Of a stretch of 64,000 nt of DNA, positions 2,313-10,402 are shown piece by piece. Below the pieces are notes generated by a model, which was not told the origin of the DNA, did not search any database, and worked only from the letters and a program-made list of their open reading frames with translations. How positions within the stretch are numbered: the first letter of the stretch is position 1; each line of letters begins with the position of its first letter. Source of the stretch: Thermotoga profunda AZM34c06 (GTDB taxonomy: Bacteria > Thermotogota > Thermotogae > Thermotogales > DSM-5069); contig NZ_AP014510.1 of the NCBI RefSeq assembly GCF_000828675.1, positions 1,507,413 through 1,571,412 on the forward strand. Reading direction: 5' to 3'. The position numbers and the translations under genes are program-made.

Positions 2313-4031
2313 TCACATTTGCTCGATAACCTTCAAAAGTGCTTTTGCTGCCAACATCGTTCCTTCCTTTTCATATCCTTCAACGCCGAGCATCGTTCTT
2401 ATCTCTCCAACCTTCACACCTGTCTCGAACATTTTATTCATGAAATATTCTGCTATCTTGTGGTGTTCTTTCTGGCGTTGCACAGCTCCAAATGGGTTGG
2501 CAAAATAGGATGTGGTAAGGCCTGTCTCGGAAGTTGTACCTTTACTCATTCTCTTTCCTTCTGAGAATACTTTCAATGCATCATCGATGTTATCAAAGAA
2601 AATGATACGATCCTCATCACGACTGACCTCTGTATAGTTGTTCGCATACAAGAAGAAATCTATATGAGTTGGAGTAATAACTTCGTTGTAGTTATTAAAT
2701 GGCACTATAACACGCGCATTTATTTGATCTGGATTCATGAATATACTCCTGTCCATTGTCGAATAAGCAAATCCTGGTGGTAAGTCATCGAGTCTGACGA
2801 ATGCACCAGTCTCTGTACCAAGGGCAAAAACGTGCCCATCTATTACTGAAAGACTACCCATATCATCAATAATCGTGTCAACTTGAGCTACTTCTTCTAA
2901 TCTGTTGAGTGCATCAAGTGTTTCGCTCTTTCCAGCTCCACTGTCACCAACAAACATAGCCACAACAGTTTTGCCACTCTTTAGGGTAATCTTTGCCATT
3001 GAACCGTGTATGGGAAGTTTGCCATGGTCTATCTTTATTAAATTGTGAATCGTCAGAGTGGTCTTTTTCATGTATCCAAAGTAGTCGTTTTCGTCAAATG
3101 CTGGTATCACACCAACATAATGATTTTTGTCTTTGAATATCACTCCATTGCGCCATTTATCATTGTAATTTGGGATTTTATTCGCCGGCAGACCAAATAT
3201 GAGAATCCCATCGGGTACTCTGTGCTTCAAATCCTTTGGAGTTGCAAGCTCAAATAAATTGGCAAGCCCGGCTCCGTGAGCGAGATATTCAGCATGAACG
3301 AAATTGTAGAAAAGCAGATCTCCAACAAAGATCGTAAATCTATACCATTCATTGGGATCAAGTGCTATTTTATCGAGTATCGTGTCTTCGACCACCGGTA
3401 GGACTCCTTTTCTCTTGTTGGATTTCGTGTAGAATATTGCCGGTGGATCAAAGATCGCTCCCCATACAGTTGGAACCTTGAGCATCCACTGATGTTCTTG
3501 ATACTTCTCTGTGTTGGGTTCTTCCACTAAGAACATCACCTGTGCCCCACTTGGTAGTTGTCTCATCACCGTTGGAAATGTATTTGAAACATTCATCATA
3601 AGTTCTCTGTACAAATTCTTTATAACAGCCTTGAATTGATCTCCAACCATAGTCATTGTGTATTCAATACTGGCTCTTCTATTGTAATCATCTACATATT
3701 TTTCCTGTCTAACCATGAATCGATGCTTTGAACGCCAGAATGTATAGAATGCCTCTATGAAGCGCTCGAGTTCTTTGGGGTTCACATAATAGATTATGTT
3801 GGTGATCTCTTTGATATTTCTCATAGTGAGCAGGTGAAGATATTCTGCAAATCGATGTAAATCATAGTCGCTGTTGACTCTGAATGCATTGAGGGCATTA
3901 AGAAGCGGACTTGATTTTTCCTTGAGGATATCTACGAATTCTCGCAAAAGCGACTCAAATTTTTTCTGACCTATTATCTGACTGTAATTTGTATATATCA
4001 CCGATCCATCGATAATAACACTCCTGCTCAC
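2313..4031 (-). CDS. PEP carboxykinase/HPr kinase-like P-loop protein, substrate unknown
   Basis: This 572-residue protein has a helical N-terminal half and a C-terminal nucleotide-binding half. The P-loop GDSGAGKSE closely matches that of HPr kinase (GDSGxGKSE) and is related to ATP-dependent PEP carboxykinase. HGSM before it, IIDDMGSL (Walker-B-like), RVIVPFNNY and YFANPFG after it fit the PEPCK-type fold. The N-terminal 300 residues match neither family that I can recall, and the protein is longer than an HPr kinase (about 310). A kinase or carboxykinase activity is possible but not shown. Start: GTG at 4031 after GGAGGCGG (4036-4043). It is a single gene ending at the hairpin at 2268-2294. 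Confidence 0.7.
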   Translation of the reverse strand: MSRSVIIDGSVIYTNYSQIIGQKKFESLLREFVDILKEKSSPLLNALNAFRVNSDYDLHRFAEYLHLLTMRNIKEITNIIYYVNPKELERFIEAFYTFWRSKHRFMVRQEKYVDDYNRRASIEYTMTMVGDQFKAVIKNLYRELMMNVSNTFPTVMRQLPSGAQVMFLVEEPNTEKYQEHQWMLKVPTVWGAIFDPPAIFYTKSNKRKGVLPVVEDTILDKIALDPNEWYRFTIFVGDLLFYNFVHAEYLAHGAGLANLFELATPKDLKHRVPDGILIFGLPANKIPNYNDKWRNGVIFKDKNHYVGVIPAFDENDYFGYMKKTTLTIHNLIKIDHGKLPIHGSMAKITLKSGKTVVAMFVGDSGAGKSETLDALNRLEEVAQVDTIIDDMGSLSVIDGHVFALGTETGAFVRLDDLPPGFAYSTMDRSIFMNPDQINARVIVPFNNYNEVITPTHIDFFLYANNYTEVSRDEDRIIFFDNIDDALKVFSEGKRMSKGTTSETGLTTSYFANPFGAVQRQKEHHKIAEYFMNKMFETGVKVGEIRTMLGVEGYEKEGTMLAAKALLKVIEQM

Positions 4032-4179: not shown

Positions 4180-4740
4180 TCAAGGTTTTTTAATGTAGAT
4201 TTTGGCTTCTTTACCATTGTCAACAAGCCATACATCAAAACCAAGACGCTTGTAATAACTCGGAATTCTTTCTTTCGATATAGGATAGTCCACTATAACG
4301 AGTAAAATCTCTCCATTTTGCATGAGTTCAAGTTCTTTCTTGGTTCTAAGATCTGGTATAGGACAAACCTCACCGCGCACATCTAATATTCTCTGTGGTT
4401 GGGGCAGATTTCCTTCAGAATTATAATAAATCACGAATTTGCCACTAAGAACTGCAGATTGTTTTGAAATTGACAATATTTCAGTAGCTTCTTCAATCAT
4501 GTGGAGGATATGAGGTGAAGAAAGATCAAATCGATCACCATCTTTTGATTTAATAATTGTCAACAAACCGAAATCTTGCATTTGGAGTAAATAACGATAA
4601 GCCGTTGAAATATTCATATCCAACTTGCTTGCAACCTCAGTTGCTGTCAAGCATCCATCCATTAAGAGCATGAGGATTTCCAAACGTTTCTGATTCGCCA
4701 AAACCTTGAATAATTCAGTTAAACTGATTCGCCTTGACAT
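4180..4740 (-). CDS. ArsR-type HTH regulator fused to a TusA sulfur-carrier domain
   Basis: The 186-residue protein has an N-terminal winged helix-turn-helix (residues 5-75: FKVLANQKRLEILMLL, then TATEVASKLDMNISTAYRYL), a linker, and a C-terminal TusA/SirA-like domain (about 117-186). The latter keeps the sulfur-carrying Cys126 in RGEVCPIPD. The C-terminal part closely matches the separate TusA of the same operon (6815-7054): both have DVRGEVCP and DYPxSKERIP. ArsR metal-site cysteines (CxC) are absent, so persulfide on Cys126 (perhaps with Cys30) is a likelier signal than metal. It should bind DNA and probably controls the sulfur genes just upstream. Start: ATG at 4740 with GAGGTG at 4745-4750; the longer TTG frame begins inside the ribosome site. 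Confidence 0.85.
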   Translation of the reverse strand: MSRRISLTELFKVLANQKRLEILMLLMDGCLTATEVASKLDMNISTAYRYLLQMQDFGLLTIIKSKDGDRFDLSSPHILHMIEEATEILSISKQSAVLSGKFVIYYNSEGNLPQPQRILDVRGEVCPIPDLRTKKELELMQNGEILLVIVDYPISKERIPSYYKRLGFDVWLVDNGKEAKIYIKKP

Positions 4741-4758: not shown

Positions 4759-4777
4759 GCCGCGGATAGACCGCGGC
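4759..4777 (-). promoter_or_regulatory. GC-rich inverted repeat between dsrH and the ArsR-TusA gene (terminator, attenuator or operator)
   Basis: GCCGCGG and CCGCGGC form a perfect 7-bp stem around 5 bases. It stands in the 60-bp gap between the stop of the DsrH gene and the start of the regulator. On the minus strand it is followed by TTAGTTTT, a weak T tract. It could partly terminate the operon transcript, keeping the regulator at lower level, or be a binding site of the ArsR-type protein. The sequence alone does not decide. Confidence 0.5.
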
Positions 4778-4800
4778 GGTTTTATTATTCAATTATACAC

Positions 4801-5070
4801 TTAAGAAATACTCTTGGGATGTTTTTCAATTAATTCAATTAACTGCGCATAGTTTATTAGAGGAACTTTTGAGTTTGATTCTTCATATCCACGAGCAAGA
4901 AAATCTTCTTTAATGGCGTACACTTTGGCTTTCGTGTACTGTTTCATATCATCTAAAGCCCAATAAACACCGTTTTGAATTAATACAACATCGTCATCAA
5001 GTGATGCGCTTCCAAGCTTGATTTTTTCAGCAGGATTATTCTTTCCAAATTTGACCAGTATAAGAGCCAT
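4801..5070 (-). CDS. DsrH/TusB-like sulfur relay subunit
   Basis: The 89-residue protein shows the DsrH/TusB pattern VVLIQNGVYWAL and AKVYAIKEDFLARGY. In E. coli TusB is a subunit of the TusBCD hexamer; in sulfur oxidisers DsrH belongs to DsrEFH. Both pass persulfide sulfur between carriers. This copy has no cysteine at all, so its role would be structural and the sulfur must ride on the DsrE subunit. Start: ATG at 5070 with GAGGTG 6 nt upstream, not the upstream in-frame codon at 5079. It follows the DsrF gene by 10 nt. Confidence 0.8.
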   Translation of the reverse strand: MALILVKFGKNNPAEKIKLGSASLDDDVVLIQNGVYWALDDMKQYTKAKVYAIKEDFLARGYEESNSKVPLINYAQLIELIEKHPKSIS

Positions 5071-5080
5071 TCGATTCACC

Positions 5081-5434
5081 TCACATGAATATCACATAAT
5101 CAAATTTGTGCAAAAACTCTTCCAGATCGTTTCTTGATATGATTTCTGCTTGAAAATTCTCATCAAGTTCGCCCACTTTGAATTTTTCAAGATCTTCTCT
5201 TACAGCATAGACTGGTGTACCATAGCTTTTTATATATCTATGGCATATTGAAAGTGGTAAAAGCCCCAAAGATTCAGGTTTTGTTTTTTTCGAAAGGGCC
5301 ACACAGGCTTCATCAATCATGAGTACCGCAGGCTCAAGGTCCTCACCGTACATACCAAAAGTGGTTCTGAAAGCCTCGTTGACCCAGATACTTCCAACGG
5401 GAGATTGGTAGACTACAAATAGTAATTTTTTCAT
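5081..5434 (-). CDS. DsrF/TusC-like sulfur relay subunit
   Basis: The 117-residue protein has the DsrE/DsrF-like fold pattern: LLFVVYQSPVGSIWVNEAFR at the N-terminus, LEPAVLMIDEACVAL, then YGTPVYAVREDLEKF, close to the TusC/DsrF consensus. It is expected to join the DsrE and DsrH products in one complex. Cys44 and Cys64 are present but not in the DsrE active-site context. The ATG at 5434 has GAGGTG upstream and lies 9 nt after the DsrE stop. The subfamily call (DsrF rather than another DsrE-like) rests partly on the E-F-H gene order. Confidence 0.78.
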   Translation of the reverse strand: MKKLLFVVYQSPVGSIWVNEAFRTTFGMYGEDLEPAVLMIDEACVALSKKTKPESLGLLPLSICHRYIKSYGTPVYAVREDLEKFKVGELDENFQAEIISRNDLEEFLHKFDYVIFM

Positions 5435-5443
5435 AATCTCACC

Positions 5444-5800
5444 TCAAGCCATTAGATTAATGAATCTGTCACTGCTGTAAAGTAATTGTGCAAGCTCTGG
5501 AAGGCCACTTGGTTTAGCTCCTTCTATTATCATATCTGTGGTGATGCCCCTGTAATCCATACAAATTCCACAGATATCCACTTTCACTTTACCTGTTTCT
5601 ATCAATTCTTTGAGTTTCTGAGGGATATTTCTGTCAATTCTTATAGGTTTGACATTCTTGTTTATACATAAAACAGAATCTGCAAACAAAAACAAGTCTA
5701 CTTCATGGCCTTTTTCAACAGCCGCTTGCGCCATTTTTATTGCTGTATCAAGATCTTCGTATGTGTATGGGGGTGTCATAACTTGGATAGTTATCTTCAT
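5444..5800 (-). CDS. DsrE/TusD-like sulfurtransferase subunit
   Basis: The 118-residue protein has the DsrE fold pattern: ITIQVMTPPYTYEDLDTAI, then EVDLFLFADSV and a cysteine motif DICGICMDYRG with Cys77 and Cys80. In TusD and DsrE the persulfide-carrying cysteine is at about residue 78, so one of these is the likely sulfur acceptor from TusA. I chose ATG at 5800, which has GGGAG 8 nt upstream (5809-5813) and begins 2 nt after the YeeE stop. An ATG at 5806 is too close to that site. Confidence 0.85.
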   Translation of the reverse strand: MKITIQVMTPPYTYEDLDTAIKMAQAAVEKGHEVDLFLFADSVLCINKNVKPIRIDRNIPQKLKELIETGKVKVDICGICMDYRGITTDMIIEGAKPSGLPELAQLLYSSDRFINLMA

Positions 5801-5802
5801 GC

Positions 5803-6798
5803 TCATCTCTCCCTGCCGAAGAGTAACCAAGCCATGGTCCAGTTACCGAGTATAAAGAAAATAGATGCGATTATTGAAGAGATTGCAAGTTGTGGGACAC
5901 CTGTCAAGAAATGACCTATGTTACATCCACTTGCAGTTGCTGCTCCGAATCCCATAAGTGCCCCGCCTATCATCACTTGGAGGTAAGTTTTGGGGTCTTT
6001 TGGCATCCTCAGTTTGAATTCTTTGGAAGCAAGAGACGAAATCAATGCACCTAATATTATTCCAATGATTTCCGCACCTTCCCAGTTGATGGGCTTATTG
6101 GCTGTGTATACAGAGAACAAGTTCACCCATCCACCGGTGATACCAAGACCATAGTTTCTACCCGTTTTTGCACTTGTCCACCATGCTATGGGAGCGAGTA
6201 TGGCAATGAGTACAGAAGCAAGTACCCAGTTCAATTTAGTGGGTCTTTGAGTGGTTTTTGTTCCAAAAGCATACCAAATCAACAAACCGGCAAAGATCAA
6301 CGTAACTACCCAGGGGTTTACATTAAAAACCGTTGATAAAGTCGGACCAGTCTTTGAAGCATAAACTTGGTTTGTGTTCTGGACAGTGATGTTGTATTTG
6401 TTCACCCATTTTGTCCAACCCGAGAAGATACCACTGTTTGTTGCATAAGCAGTTAATCCATAGAAGATTGCGGCAAACCAAGCCGTTGTCATTCCTTCTC
6501 CTGATCTATATGTAACACCAGAAGCACATCCACCTGCAAGAACCATACCAATTCCAAAGATATAACCACCGATGATGTTGGCGATCCAGTTAAGTGGTTT
6601 TGGTGCCAAGCTTATTACTCCAAGCTGTGCAAAAAGTAAGAGTGTAATCGATTCTAAAGCAAGGGTAAAAGCTGCGAGCTTCATCAAGTAATTATCCTTG
6701 AAAATCAAAACATCTCTGAAGGCTGAATTGAAACAAACACGACCCTTTTGAAGGATTATGCCAAAGATAATACCTATCACAAGCCCGGTCCAAATCAT
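5803..6798 (-). CDS. yeeE: YeeE/YedE-family thiosulfate transporter
   Basis: A 331-residue polytopic membrane protein of the YeeE/YedE (sulf_transp) family. From memory, the thiosulfate transporter YeeE of Spirochaeta thermophila passes thiosulfate along three conserved cysteines at 22, 91 and 293. Counting from the ATG at 6798, this protein has Cys22 (KGRVCFNSAFRD), Cys91 (GGCASGVTYR) and Cys292 (ASGCNIGHFL), a near-exact match that also supports this start. GGAGG at 6807-6811 stands 8 nt upstream. It lies between a TusA (YeeD-like) gene and the DsrEFH-like genes, so imported thiosulfate probably feeds that relay. Confidence 0.92.
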   Translation of the reverse strand: MIWTGLVIGIIFGIILQKGRVCFNSAFRDVLIFKDNYLMKLAAFTLALESITLLLFAQLGVISLAPKPLNWIANIIGGYIFGIGMVLAGGCASGVTYRSGEGMTTAWFAAIFYGLTAYATNSGIFSGWTKWVNKYNITVQNTNQVYASKTGPTLSTVFNVNPWVVTLIFAGLLIWYAFGTKTTQRPTKLNWVLASVLIAILAPIAWWTSAKTGRNYGLGITGGWVNLFSVYTANKPINWEGAEIIGIILGALISSLASKEFKLRMPKDPKTYLQVMIGGALMGFGAATASGCNIGHFLTGVPQLAISSIIASIFFILGNWTMAWLLFGRER

Positions 6799-6814
6799 TA
6801 TATCAACCTCCAAC

Positions 6815-7054
6815 TTATTTCACTTTTATGTAGATCTTCCATTCGCTTTTTCCTACTTCTTCGATCTCGAGAACTTCATGTCCCATTTGCTTCACAGATT
6901 CTGGTATTCTTTCTTTAGACATTGGATAATCGATCCAAACTTCCAGAATTTCTCCGCTCTTCATTCCTTTCAAAGCTCTTTTTGTTTCAACATCTGGTAC
7001 TGGACATACCTCTCCACGAACATCAATAGACTTTGCCACTTGATACTTTGCCAT
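6815..7054 (-). CDS. TusA/YeeD-like sulfur carrier protein
   Basis: A 79-residue TusA-family protein with the carrier motif DVRGEVCPVPD, sulfur-binding Cys17. It is the first gene of the sulfur operon, 16 nt ahead of yeeE, the same pairing as yeeD with yeeE in E. coli. There YeeD acts on the thiosulfate brought in by YeeE. TusA proteins carry persulfide sulfur to partners such as DsrE/TusD. The C-terminal domain of the regulator at 4180-4740 is a close relative. Start: ATG at 7054 after GGAGGTG. Confidence 0.9.
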   Translation of the reverse strand: MAKYQVAKSIDVRGEVCPVPDVETKRALKGMKSGEILEVWIDYPMSKERIPESVKQMGHEVLEIEEVGKSEWKIYIKVK

Positions 7055-7251
7055 GATATCACCTCCACATTTGTGAAAAAAGTATCAATATCTATAATGA
7101 GAGTATCGCCTTTAAGTTATCAATCAATGTAATATAAGTTGCAATTTGGTAAATTAGGAAAGTAAAATCGAGGTTAATCACTCATGAAAATAACAGTGGG
7201 AACATCGAACGATCTCGCAATGAAATTTCAGATAAAATCTTTTTTTCAATT

Positions 7252-9267
7252 TCATACACGCTCATAAACTATCTCAAGAAAATTTTTAACTACATCGGGA
7301 TTGAATTGTGTTCCAGAGCAATTTCTGATTTCTTCGAGAGCCTTCTCGACGGTCATAGGAACTCTTCTGTAAGGTCGAGCCGTTGTCATGGCATCAAAAC
7401 TGTCCGCGATGAATATCACTTGAGACTTCAATGGTACTTCTTCACCCTTCAACCCTATAGGATAACCCTTTCCATCGTAACGTTCATGGTGATAAAGTAT
7501 GATCTTGGCAATTTCTTCCATACCGTTTATCGAAGAGATCAATTCATAACCCTTCACTGGATGTTGCTTTACAAGTTCAAATTCATCATCAGTCAGATAA
7601 CCTTCTTTGTTTAATACACTTTGTGGTACGTAGATTTTTCCAATGTCATGCAGTAGTGCAGCCAATTCCAGTTCTGATTCAGAAAAACCAAGCTTTCGAG
7701 CCATTTTCTTACAAAACTCTGCCACTCTTTGCGAATGCCCTTGAGTGTATTTATCATAATACTCTAATGCTTTGACGAGCATTGATACTATTTTTTTATT
7801 CAATTCTTCTGTGATAGATATATACCTTCTTACCAAGAAAAATGAATTCACTATTTTAGCAAGACTCTCAGCCATTCTTAAATCATTTTCCGTAAAAACC
7901 TTGCCTGAATCTTGTTTTGTTTCCAAGACAATGTCGCCTATGATCTCATCTGAAATCTTCATGGGTATTATCATTGTATAAGATGGTCTTGGAATCACCT
8001 TTTCGACCTCTGCAAAGACATCATGGTGCATTCGTTTACTGTCAAGCGATCTTATATCTTTTACAATCACTGGTTTGTCTGGTATGTATAGTTCACTGGA
8101 AGGTATCCTTAGGATATTTATGGAATCTTTGTCAAAACCACAAGCCTCTATAATTTGCCAAGTTTTTCGATCAAATAACGAAATATTTCCAAAATCAGCC
8201 TTTGGAAACATATCAAAGATCAATTTAAAAGCCTTTCTCAAGAAATTTTCCCCATCTTCCTGTAAATTGAAGGCTTCATTTATCAAACTCAGCGTGCTCA
8301 TAAAATTGTTATTGGTTTTCTCGAGTTCACTCAGAGCCCTTTCGAGTTCCTCATTCATCGCCTTTATCTCTTCTGACTGAGCTTCAAGTTCTTCATTGAA
8401 AGCACTGAGTTGTTCGTTCTTTCGATCGAGTTCTTTTGTTGCTTTGCGCACAGCCTTTCTCAAGTAAACATTCAAACCAAAGAAGAACAATAAAATACCA
8501 ACCAAAATCAATACAATAATGAATGTGATCAATAAAACGGATGGATCTATGCCAGCACGTGGGGCCATAGAAAGAACTATGTTTTCAATCTCTTTTGGTG
8601 AGATCTTCTCTAAACCATTATTTAAGAGCATCAGAACATGTTCTTTTCCTTTTGGAACAGCCCAGTGCAAACTGTTTTCAGTGAAAGGTCTTGATCTTTT
8701 CACCTGATAAACCATGTCAAATTTATGTAAATAGTACTCTGCTGGTACATCGTCCATCAAAATGACTTCGACCTCATGGTTTTTCAGTGCGAGAAAAAGT
8801 TCTCCATATGTATCGTAAAATCTGAATTGTATAGAAGGATTAGAATCCTTTGCGATTTCATATAAGGCATCACCTTTTTTGACGCCAACTACATAGGGAG
8901 TGAGATCTTTGAGACTTTTCAAGGTTGGTAGATGTTCATCGTAGTATATGCTACTCGTGATTCTGTAGATTTCAATTGAATAATCCAGAAACTTTCTTCT
9001 TTCTTCGGTGACAAAAATGAGATCTATGACATCTGTTTTCTTTTCCTGCGCTATTTTCAAGGCATCTTCCCAGTTCATAGGTATCAATTCTACTTCAATA
9101 CCCGTTCTTTGTGAGAAAAGCTCCCACAACTTTGGACTGATTCCAACAAGTTTTCCTTCTTGATCTATATACGTAAATGGAGGATAATCTATATCGGTGA
9201 CAACTGTAATTTTTGCTGAAAAAACCATTGAAACAATGAATAGAAGACTCAAGACAACTTTCTTCAT
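7252..9267 (-). CDS. Sensor protein: periplasmic solute-binding domain, TM helix, GAF, HD-GYP
   Basis: The 671-residue protein has a signal peptide (1-17) and a periplasmic domain of the SBP_bac_3 type (about 18-240: ITVVTDIDYPPFTYIDQEG, NWEDALKIAQ). A TM helix at about 246-268 is followed by a charged coiled coil (270-335), a GAF-like domain (about 340-480) and an HD-GYP domain (about 500-671). The last keeps HSQRV, LLHDIGKI and HHERYDGKGYP. HD-GYP domains usually break down cyclic di-GMP, so an external ligand would tune the second messenger. The start is ATG 9267 with AAGGAGA upstream. It is a single gene, divergent from mnmA. Confidence 0.9.
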   Translation of the reverse strand: MKKVVLSLLFIVSMVFSAKITVVTDIDYPPFTYIDQEGKLVGISPKLWELFSQRTGIEVELIPMNWEDALKIAQEKKTDVIDLIFVTEERRKFLDYSIEIYRITSSIYYDEHLPTLKSLKDLTPYVVGVKKGDALYEIAKDSNPSIQFRFYDTYGELFLALKNHEVEVILMDDVPAEYYLHKFDMVYQVKRSRPFTENSLHWAVPKGKEHVLMLLNNGLEKISPKEIENIVLSMAPRAGIDPSVLLITFIIVLILVGILLFFFGLNVYLRKAVRKATKELDRKNEQLSAFNEELEAQSEEIKAMNEELERALSELEKTNNNFMSTLSLINEAFNLQEDGENFLRKAFKLIFDMFPKADFGNISLFDRKTWQIIEACGFDKDSINILRIPSSELYIPDKPVIVKDIRSLDSKRMHHDVFAEVEKVIPRPSYTMIIPMKISDEIIGDIVLETKQDSGKVFTENDLRMAESLAKIVNSFFLVRRYISITEELNKKIVSMLVKALEYYDKYTQGHSQRVAEFCKKMARKLGFSESELELAALLHDIGKIYVPQSVLNKEGYLTDDEFELVKQHPVKGYELISSINGMEEIAKIILYHHERYDGKGYPIGLKGEEVPLKSQVIFIADSFDAMTTARPYRRVPMTVEKALEEIRNCSGTQFNPDVVKNFLEIVYERV

Positions 9268-9340
9268 ATAATCTCTCCTTGCAAAAGAATGCAAATTGAT
9301 TTTAGCATATTTTAGTCACTTGTTTAGAAAAAAAGAAGGG

Positions 9341-10402
9341 ATGGTGAAGAATTTGAAAATAGGTGTTTTACTCAGCGGAGGTGTTGATAGTGCAGTTGCA
9401 CTTTATACACTCAAAGAGCAGGGACATGAAGTAATAGCATACCACATGAAAACTGTGCAAGATGAATTTTATATACAAAGACAGATAAAACATAAAGTCT
9501 GTTGTTCGCCGTCGGATACCTTTGATGCACAAATAATAGCAGATCAGTTGAAGGTTCCCCTGAGAATAATACATTTGCAAGACATCTTCAAGAAATTGAT
9601 CATTGATTATTATCTTGAAGAATACAAGCAAGGTAAAACACCGAATCCTTGTTATTTTTGTAATCGTTTGATAAAGTTCGGATATTTGATGGATTTAATG
9701 CTCCAGGACAACGTTGATTTTGTGTCGAGTGGTCATTATGCGAGAATAATTGATGGTAAATTGTATAAAGCTGTGAGCAAAGAAAAAGATCAATCTTATT
9801 TTCTGGCATCAATAGAAAGAGAAAGACTCAAAAAAATCGTCTTTCCAAATGGAGACAAAACAAAGGACGAGATACGAAAAATCGCAGAAAAAGCCAATAT
9901 TCACGTTCACGATAAGACAGAATCTCAGGATTTGTGTTTCATTCCAGATTCCGATCAATTGAGATTCTTTGAAGAATTTGGTGTTGATGTCAAACCAGGT
10001 CCTATTCTTGACAAAAGCGGAAAAAAGATAGGAGAACATAAAGGACTCGTGAAATACACGATTGGTCAAAGAAAAATAGGAGTTTCAACGGGTGAAAAAA
10101 ATTATGTGGTCAAGATATGTCCACAAGAAAATACATTGATTGTTGGAAGTGAAAAAGATGTTTATTCAAAAGGTTTTTCAGTGAGAAATTTGAATATTCT
10201 GACAGATGTGGGAAAAGAATTTGCTTCAACCGTGAAGGTGAGAAAGAACTCAGAAGAAGTCCCATGCGTGGTAATCCTCAATAACAATTCAGCTATTGTT
10301 AAAACAGACAAACCAATTTTTGCTGTAACACCTGGACAGGCAGCGGTTTTCTACAAAGACGAGATGGTACTTGCTTCTGGGATCATTGACGAGGTTTTGT
10401 GA
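9341..10402 (+). CDS. mnmA: tRNA-specific 2-thiouridylase MnmA
   Basis: MnmA adenylates U34 of tRNAs for Lys, Glu and Gln and replaces its 2-oxygen with sulfur. The PP-loop GVLLSGGVDSAVAL is at the N-terminus. Catalytic cysteines appear in NPCYFCNR (first) and ESQDLCFIPD (second). The conserved blocks GHYAR, KDQSYFLA and YTIGQRKIG are present. The start is uncertain: ATG 9341 and GTG 9344 are very near the GAAGGG site, while TTG 9353 (giving MKIGVLLSGG) has GGTGA at good distance. I list the ATG. In E. coli the sulfur comes through TusA-TusBCD-TusE; a TusA/DsrEFH operon lies 2 kb away on the other strand. Confidence 0.95.
   Translation: MVKNLKIGVLLSGGVDSAVALYTLKEQGHEVIAYHMKTVQDEFYIQRQIKHKVCCSPSDTFDAQIIADQLKVPLRIIHLQDIFKKLIIDYYLEEYKQGKTPNPCYFCNRLIKFGYLMDLMLQDNVDFVSSGHYARIIDGKLYKAVSKEKDQSYFLASIERERLKKIVFPNGDKTKDEIRKIAEKANIHVHDKTESQDLCFIPDSDQLRFFEEFGVDVKPGPILDKSGKKIGEHKGLVKYTIGQRKIGVSTGEKNYVVKICPQENTLIVGSEKDVYSKGFSVRNLNILTDVGKEFASTVKVRKNSEEVPCVVILNNNSAIVKTDKPIFAVTPGQAAVFYKDEMVLASGIIDEVL

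Follow-up and report, generated by a model that had tools for sequence, protein, structure and literature searches.

A single gene of Thermotoga profunda AZM34c06 joins an ArsR-type DNA-binding domain to a sulfur-carrier domain of the TusA fold, and the encoded fusion protein is, on balance, probably a thiosulfate- or sulfane-sulfur-responsive regulator of its own tusA-tsuA-dsrEFH operon, bound at a conserved promoter box (M1), sensing through Cys126 of the carrier and probably acting as an activator. Such a protein may pass information on sulfur uptake straight to the DNA, and it addresses the question of how bacterial regulators learn of imported sulfur. The window, that is the whole stretch of DNA analysed, comprises 64,000 nt (GCF_000828675.1, NZ_AP014510.1, forward strand 1,507,413-1,571,412). 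The fusion gene and its parts are located in it as follows.

4180..4740, minus strand: fusion regulator gene (ArsR-type HTH plus TsuB/TusA), ATG at 4740, 186 amino acids
4465..4725, minus strand: winged-helix DNA-binding domain, residues 6-92 (PF01022, model, Foldseek)
4651..4653, minus strand: Cys30 codon, not conserved (member alignment)
4573..4611, minus strand: recognition helix, residues 44-56, ISTAYRYLLQMQ (AlphaFold model, member comparison)
4393..4464, minus strand: flexible linker, residues 93-116 (low pLDDT, variable among relatives)
4183..4392, minus strand: TusA-fold domain of TsuB/YeeD type, residues 117-186 (PF01206, nearest solved relatives)
4363..4365, minus strand: codon of Cys126 in CPxP, the proposed sulfur-loading site (member alignment)
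4261..4290, minus strand: DYPISKERIP, residues 151-160, with the counterparts of StTsuB D42, Y43, E48 and R49 (alignment)

An earlier note on this DNA had described the protein as an ArsR-type domain followed by a complete TusA domain with Cys126, and Pfam, AlphaFold and Foldseek all agree with that description. The N-terminal part matches the HTH_5/ArsR family (PF01022) over residues 17-60 with 27.4 bits (cut-off 22), and the C-terminal part matches TusA (PF01206) over residues 118-185 with 68.2 bits (cut-off 28.6). The AlphaFold model (mean pLDDT 86.5) consists of a winged helix-turn-helix at residues 7-92 and a TusA fold at 117-185, separated by a low-confidence linker at about 93-116. Structure searches with the N-terminal half returned SmtB, CzrA, SqrR and HlyU (E about 3e-5 for SmtB and CzrA), and the C-terminal half returned TusA, TsuB and the TsuA-TsuB complex. 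The winged-helix fold and the HTH_5 match place the first domain in the ArsR/SmtB family, and the TusA fold and CPxP cysteine place the second in the TusA family. The recognition helix is among the best-conserved segments of the fusion proteins, and their comparison revealed no conserved Cys/His cluster of a metal site.

The neighbouring genes form an operon for sulfur import and relay.

6815..7054, minus strand: tusA/tsuB, free carrier and first operon gene (PF01206; 108 bits to S. thermophila TsuB, StTsuB, 8j4c)
5803..6813, minus strand: tsuA (YeeE), thiosulfate transporter (NF052577, 592 bits)
5444..5800, minus strand: dsrE/tusD-like gene (PF02635, 95 bits; TIGR03012 below cut-off)
5081..5434, minus strand: dsrF/tusC-like gene (weak NF001238/TIGR03010; conserved operon place)
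4801..5079, minus strand: dsrH/tusB (TIGR03011, 60 bits)
4792..4797, minus strand: TATAAT, possible -10 hexamer for separate transcription of the fusion gene (read from the sequence; relatives have comparable boxes)
4759..4777, minus strand: GC hairpin ahead of the fusion gene, either attenuator-like or a partial terminator

These profile matches, weak only for dsrF, bear out the proposed operon of a TusA carrier, a YeeE transporter and DsrEFH-like proteins. In the encoded TsuA the relay cysteines C27, C96 and C297 are kept, and R33, R103 and E106 stand at the published spacing of the docking residues. That the fusion is the last gene of this operon, as had also been stated, holds only in part: the 5' hairpin, the -10-like box after dsrH and a variable place in relatives qualify the statement, and separate transcription of the gene from a promoter of its own is probable. 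In the relatives tested, the stretch between dsrH and the fusion RBS likewise contains a strong GC hairpin, with a sequence that differs among them, and no known RNA element was found between positions 4000 and 9400 of the window. The operon is adjoined by genes for the tRNA 2-thiouridylase MnmA (9338-10399, plus strand) and a solute-binding/HD-GYP-like protein (7252-9267, minus strand). Several families have a gene for dihydrolipoyl dehydrogenase, sometimes with gcvH, beside the operon or the fusion (for example L094:4498-6824 and L035:6545-8280, both minus strand). In G093 the order fusion-lpd-gcvH on one strand hints at handling of lipoyl-bound sulfur, and this gcvH scores as an ordinary GcvH.

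The earlier note had suggested a search for the domain pair and its gene neighbourhood across genomes. A profile search over 103 Thermotogota genomes gave 36 with an intact fusion, among them T. maritima, and nearly all of these fusions adjoin tusA-tsuA-dsrEFH. The transporter gene tsuA occurs in 41 of the 103; the fusion is present in 34 of these 41 as against 2 of the 62 genomes without tsuA (Fisher p=6e-18, uncorrected for kinship), and in the two exceptions, G087 and G092, the operon has decayed. Against the HTH subfamily profile, fused proteins reach 70-150 bits, whereas unfused ArsR proteins, leaving out broken copies, do not exceed 60 bits; within Thermotogota this HTH subfamily was thus seen only in fused form. 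The gene may lie 3' of the other genes and on their strand, be convergent, come first (L041, L042) or lie on another contig (G018, G093); since its placement varies in this way, the fusion is linked with the operon as such rather than with a particular position. Plasmid and viral contigs contained no relatives of the fusion, and a genome-collection scan beyond the phylum with a single peptide pattern, a weak negative, matched Thermotogota only.

A sequencing or assembly error, a frameshift or a chance fusion is excluded by the 36 intact copies. Decayed operon copies were seen in four genomes: reading frames are broken in G080 (L097), where the CPxP cysteine of the broken fusion has become Tyr; deletions have created joins in G077 (L098) and, as tusA-dsrE, in G087 (L084); and in G092 (L085) dsrH and the fusion alone were recognised. 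A TusA domain also occurs in ORFs of about 820 residues (L101-L104) of four genomes, G045, G057, G068 and G102, and in these genomes tsuA was not found.

Genome G021 is probably T. maritima, as its TusA is identical to TM0983/1jdq. In T. maritima the yeeE gene (tsuA) is 42.6-fold upregulated with thiosulfate and slightly with S0, and the expression of further energy genes also changes with thiosulfate; the report mentions the dsrE/tusA neighbours of yeeE, and the word "regulator" is absent from its text (PMC9431562). The present analysis names a candidate regulator (the fusion) and a candidate operator (M1) for this strongly thiosulfate-induced operon.

The nearest solved relatives of the fused carrier domain are TM0983 and StTsuB. 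TsuB takes thiosulfate from the transporter TsuA, and the StTsuB mutants E15A, V16A, C17A, D42A, Y43A, E48A and R49A have reduced affinity for TsuA; thiosulfate modifies Cys17 of TsuB and weakens the TsuA-TsuB complex in vitro (PMC11073785). The counterparts of C17, D42, E48 and R49 are invariant in 35 fused domains, that of Y43 is kept in 34 and that of E15 in 28, and V16 is variable. At the six non-cysteine TsuA-binding positions the fused domains are 82% identical to StTsuB, compared with 35% over the remaining domain (permutation p=0.003), whereas the TusA-like domains of L101, L102 and L048, also from Thermotogota, have lost Y43, E48 and R49. The E. coli-type TsuB/YeeD model NF041048 (cut-off 147.5) is narrow; with it the fusion scores 18 bits and the free carrier 43. 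Because the TsuA-binding residues that mark the TsuB/YeeD subfamily are mostly kept, the fused carrier is, by its sequence, best called TsuB type, the partner that receives thiosulfate from TsuA, and direct loading by TsuA or thiosulfate would be possible besides loading through a DsrEFH relay.

In a domain tree, which has few columns and long branches so that its deep forks are uncertain, a single clade (100/99 support) beside the free carriers holds 32 of the 34 fused domains. Those of L041 and L042 fall outside it and may represent a second, independent fusion; they belong to shorter, diverged HTH-TusA proteins encoded first in the operon (L041:998-1486 and L042:5587-6111). The HTH-carrier fusion is ancient as judged from these sequences. 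The earlier proposal that the fused domain derived from the operon's own TusA finds no support in the tree. The motifs DVRGEVCP and DYPxSKERIP do occur in both carriers, as had been noticed, but identify the TsuB subfamily and do not point to recent copying of the genome's TusA.

The window protein has only two cysteines, Cys30 and Cys126, the latter within VCPIP. Cys126 is the sole cysteine common to all aligned fusions (35/35), and no HTH-domain cysteine is conserved across these 35 proteins. Cys30 is present in the HTH of about half of the members; in those without it linker cysteines are usual, and L038 has neither. A C-X4/5-C pair is seen in the linker of L035, L039, L040 and L083-L093, lineages mostly without Cys30; proteins of the window lineage carry Cys30, and their linker is free of cysteine. 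The LQILC cysteine of HlyU aligns with Met24 of the fusion, not with Cys30. Because of this alignment and the lack of a conserved HTH cysteine, the two-cysteine design located within the ArsR domain of SqrR and SoxR is absent from the fusion, which has no two conserved sensing cysteines in that domain of the SqrR/BigR/SoxR type.

Two boxes recur upstream of tusA across the relatives: M1, with the consensus TTTACCAAATCGTAA, and a Rex-like box. Their copies in the window are given below.

7139..7153, minus strand: M1 box TTTACCAAATTGCAA, putative binding site of the fusion regulator
7071..7088, minus strand: Rex-operator-like site TTGATACTTTTTTCACAA, between the promoter and the tusA RBS

A matrix built from the other families located a site, at p of at most 0.0033 each, in 29 of the 31 tusA promoters that accompany a fusion; 28 of these sites are M1 proper, and in L086 a different copy outscored it. 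The test failed in L034 and L096, the latter retaining the left half of M1 and the -10 spacing, and by the same matrix M1 is absent from L041/L042 and from four fusion-less operons of two lineages. A -10-like hexamer, from an accepted list drawn up after inspection, begins 32-34 bp downstream of M1 in 25 of the 31 promoters and is a perfect TATAAT in nine; the window promoter has only a weak -10 at this spacing. Between M1 and the ATG the interval ranges from 97 to 182, and no -35 element was seen in the M1-bearing tusA promoters. The near-fixed distance to the -10 and the missing -35 therefore point to an activator-like promoter layout.

M1 is nearly unique in the genomes: the 36 genomes contain 10 exact matches, six of them at the tusA promoter, and 20 matches to the reversed pattern. 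A wider M1 regulon was rejected, the extra matches being at or below this reversed-pattern control and the extra one in the window's own genome lying inside a coding ORF. An exact copy near the G021 operon was likewise set aside, being inside another ORF. Among separately placed fusion genes M1 was convincing only before that of L094. The box appears tied to the fusion by covariation with the recognition helix: all M1-associated fusions have S-T-x-(Y/F/C)-R-(Y/H)-L, and the three M1-less fusions L034, L041 and L042 have S-L-V-Y-K, A-S-L-Y-K and S-E-I-Q-K, these being few cases from divergent lineages. The second box of G021, TTGTGAAAAAAATCTCAA (C1:993707-993724), resembles the solved T. maritima Rex operator TM0201, ATTTGAGAAATTTATCACAAAA (PMC8836258). 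Rex-like boxes are also present in operons without the fusion, and the pair of sites suggests joint control of the operon by NADH/NAD+ and sulfur.

In view of the above, we infer M1 binding, loading of Cys126 and an activating role. The ArsR-type domain would bind M1, and from there, roughly 45-60 bp ahead of the predicted tusA start site, transcription could be activated. The TsuB-type domain would be the sensor, its Cys126 being loaded with thiosulfate or persulfide either directly at TsuA or from the TsuB/DsrE relay proteins. The loaded state would alter DNA binding, by which operon expression would track thiosulfate uptake. ArsR proteins are mostly repressors, whereas the M1 position is activator-like. 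The explanation as a whole should further be weighed against the origin of the M1 correlations in few independent lineages, against the lack of M1 before separately placed fusion genes other than that of L094, against the weak -10 of the window promoter, against G049 (L034), which has a fusion and no M1, and against the downstream Rex-like box, which could explain thiosulfate induction through NADH.

Other explanations share part of this evidence. In a special form of the preferred one, the unloaded regulator would be docked on TsuA, off the DNA, and thiosulfate on Cys126 would release it to M1. The TsuA-binding residues retained in the fused domain and the matching residues kept in TsuA fit this idea, as does the weaker TsuA-TsuB binding with thiosulfate in vitro (PMC11073785), but the operon's free TsuB would compete for the TsuA site and thiosulfate chemistry alone could preserve the same residues; such sequestration is possible, though we think it rather unlikely. 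Slightly more doubtful is a scheme in which the transcription factor is part of the transport step itself: the TsuB domain docks on TsuA, Cys126 takes the thiosulfate, the protein is released and the operon is switched on from M1. If true, gene control would read transporter flux via covalent hand-over of the substrate to a transcription factor.

It is improbable that Rex is the main regulator, responding to a shift in NADH/NAD+ at its box while M1 serves the fusion or another factor in a minor or different role. The site before the tusA RBS (7071-7088) resembles the solved operator and occurs in fusion-less operons as well, and thiosulfate affects other energy genes, but a phylum-wide, operon-linked fusion with an invariant carrier cysteine would be left unexplained, and so would the M1 box and its link with the recognition helix. 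A thiol switch in the manner of SqrR/SoxR is equally improbable. Here Cys126 would form a disulfide or polysulfide bridge with Cys30 or a linker cysteine, the carrier merely holding a reactive cysteine; nearly all members have such a second cysteine, yet it is never at a conserved place, L038 lacks both kinds, and the kept TsuA-binding residues are not accounted for. Finally, DNA binding is not proven by ArsR homology alone and the free carrier is from the same family, so the winged helix could be a remnant or tether of a second sulfur carrier, or the protein a metal sensor of the ArsR kind. Both are very improbable in view of the well-conserved recognition helix and the lack of a conserved metal-site cluster. 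The regulator reading with Cys126 as sensing residue remains preferred.

A keyword search of 5.4 million open-access papers returned no description of an ArsR-TusA fusion, an outcome that bears on the question, raised in the earlier note, whether the carrier-fusion design is undescribed. Among known systems, SqrR, BigR, YgaV, SoxR and sHdrR share the ArsR/SmtB fold and the tie to sulfur genes; the protein of solved structure that comes closest in sequence is HlyU. SqrR, BigR, YgaV, SoxR and sHdrR are repressors with two conserved cysteines in the HTH protein, whereas the fusion is without this pair, has an attached carrier as putative sensor and, unlike the ArsR-type sulfane-sulfur repressors, has its candidate operator at an activator-like position. 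TsuB/YeeD shares the CPxP cysteine, the TsuA-binding residues and the genetic association with TsuA, but the fused copy is joined to a DNA-binding domain and is additional to the free TsuB/TusA. Thermotoga Rex is similar only as the probable second regulator of the tusA promoter; it senses NADH/NAD+ and has unrelated domains.

In Hyphomicrobium denitrificans the YeeE-like SoxT1B signals to the ArsR-type SoxR, with TusA as a proposed intermediate (PMC11582611). A YeeE-family transporter, a TusA-like acceptor, an ArsR-type regulator and a thiosulfate signal are common to both systems, but SoxT1B, TusA and SoxR are separate proteins and the TusA step is only proposed, whereas in Thermotogota acceptor and regulator are one chain. 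With this arrangement and with T. maritima as a model, the hand-over is therefore directly testable with few proteins. The novelty of the fusion is in its sensing part, the DNA-binding fold and the kind of signal being those of the ArsR-type sulfur sensors.
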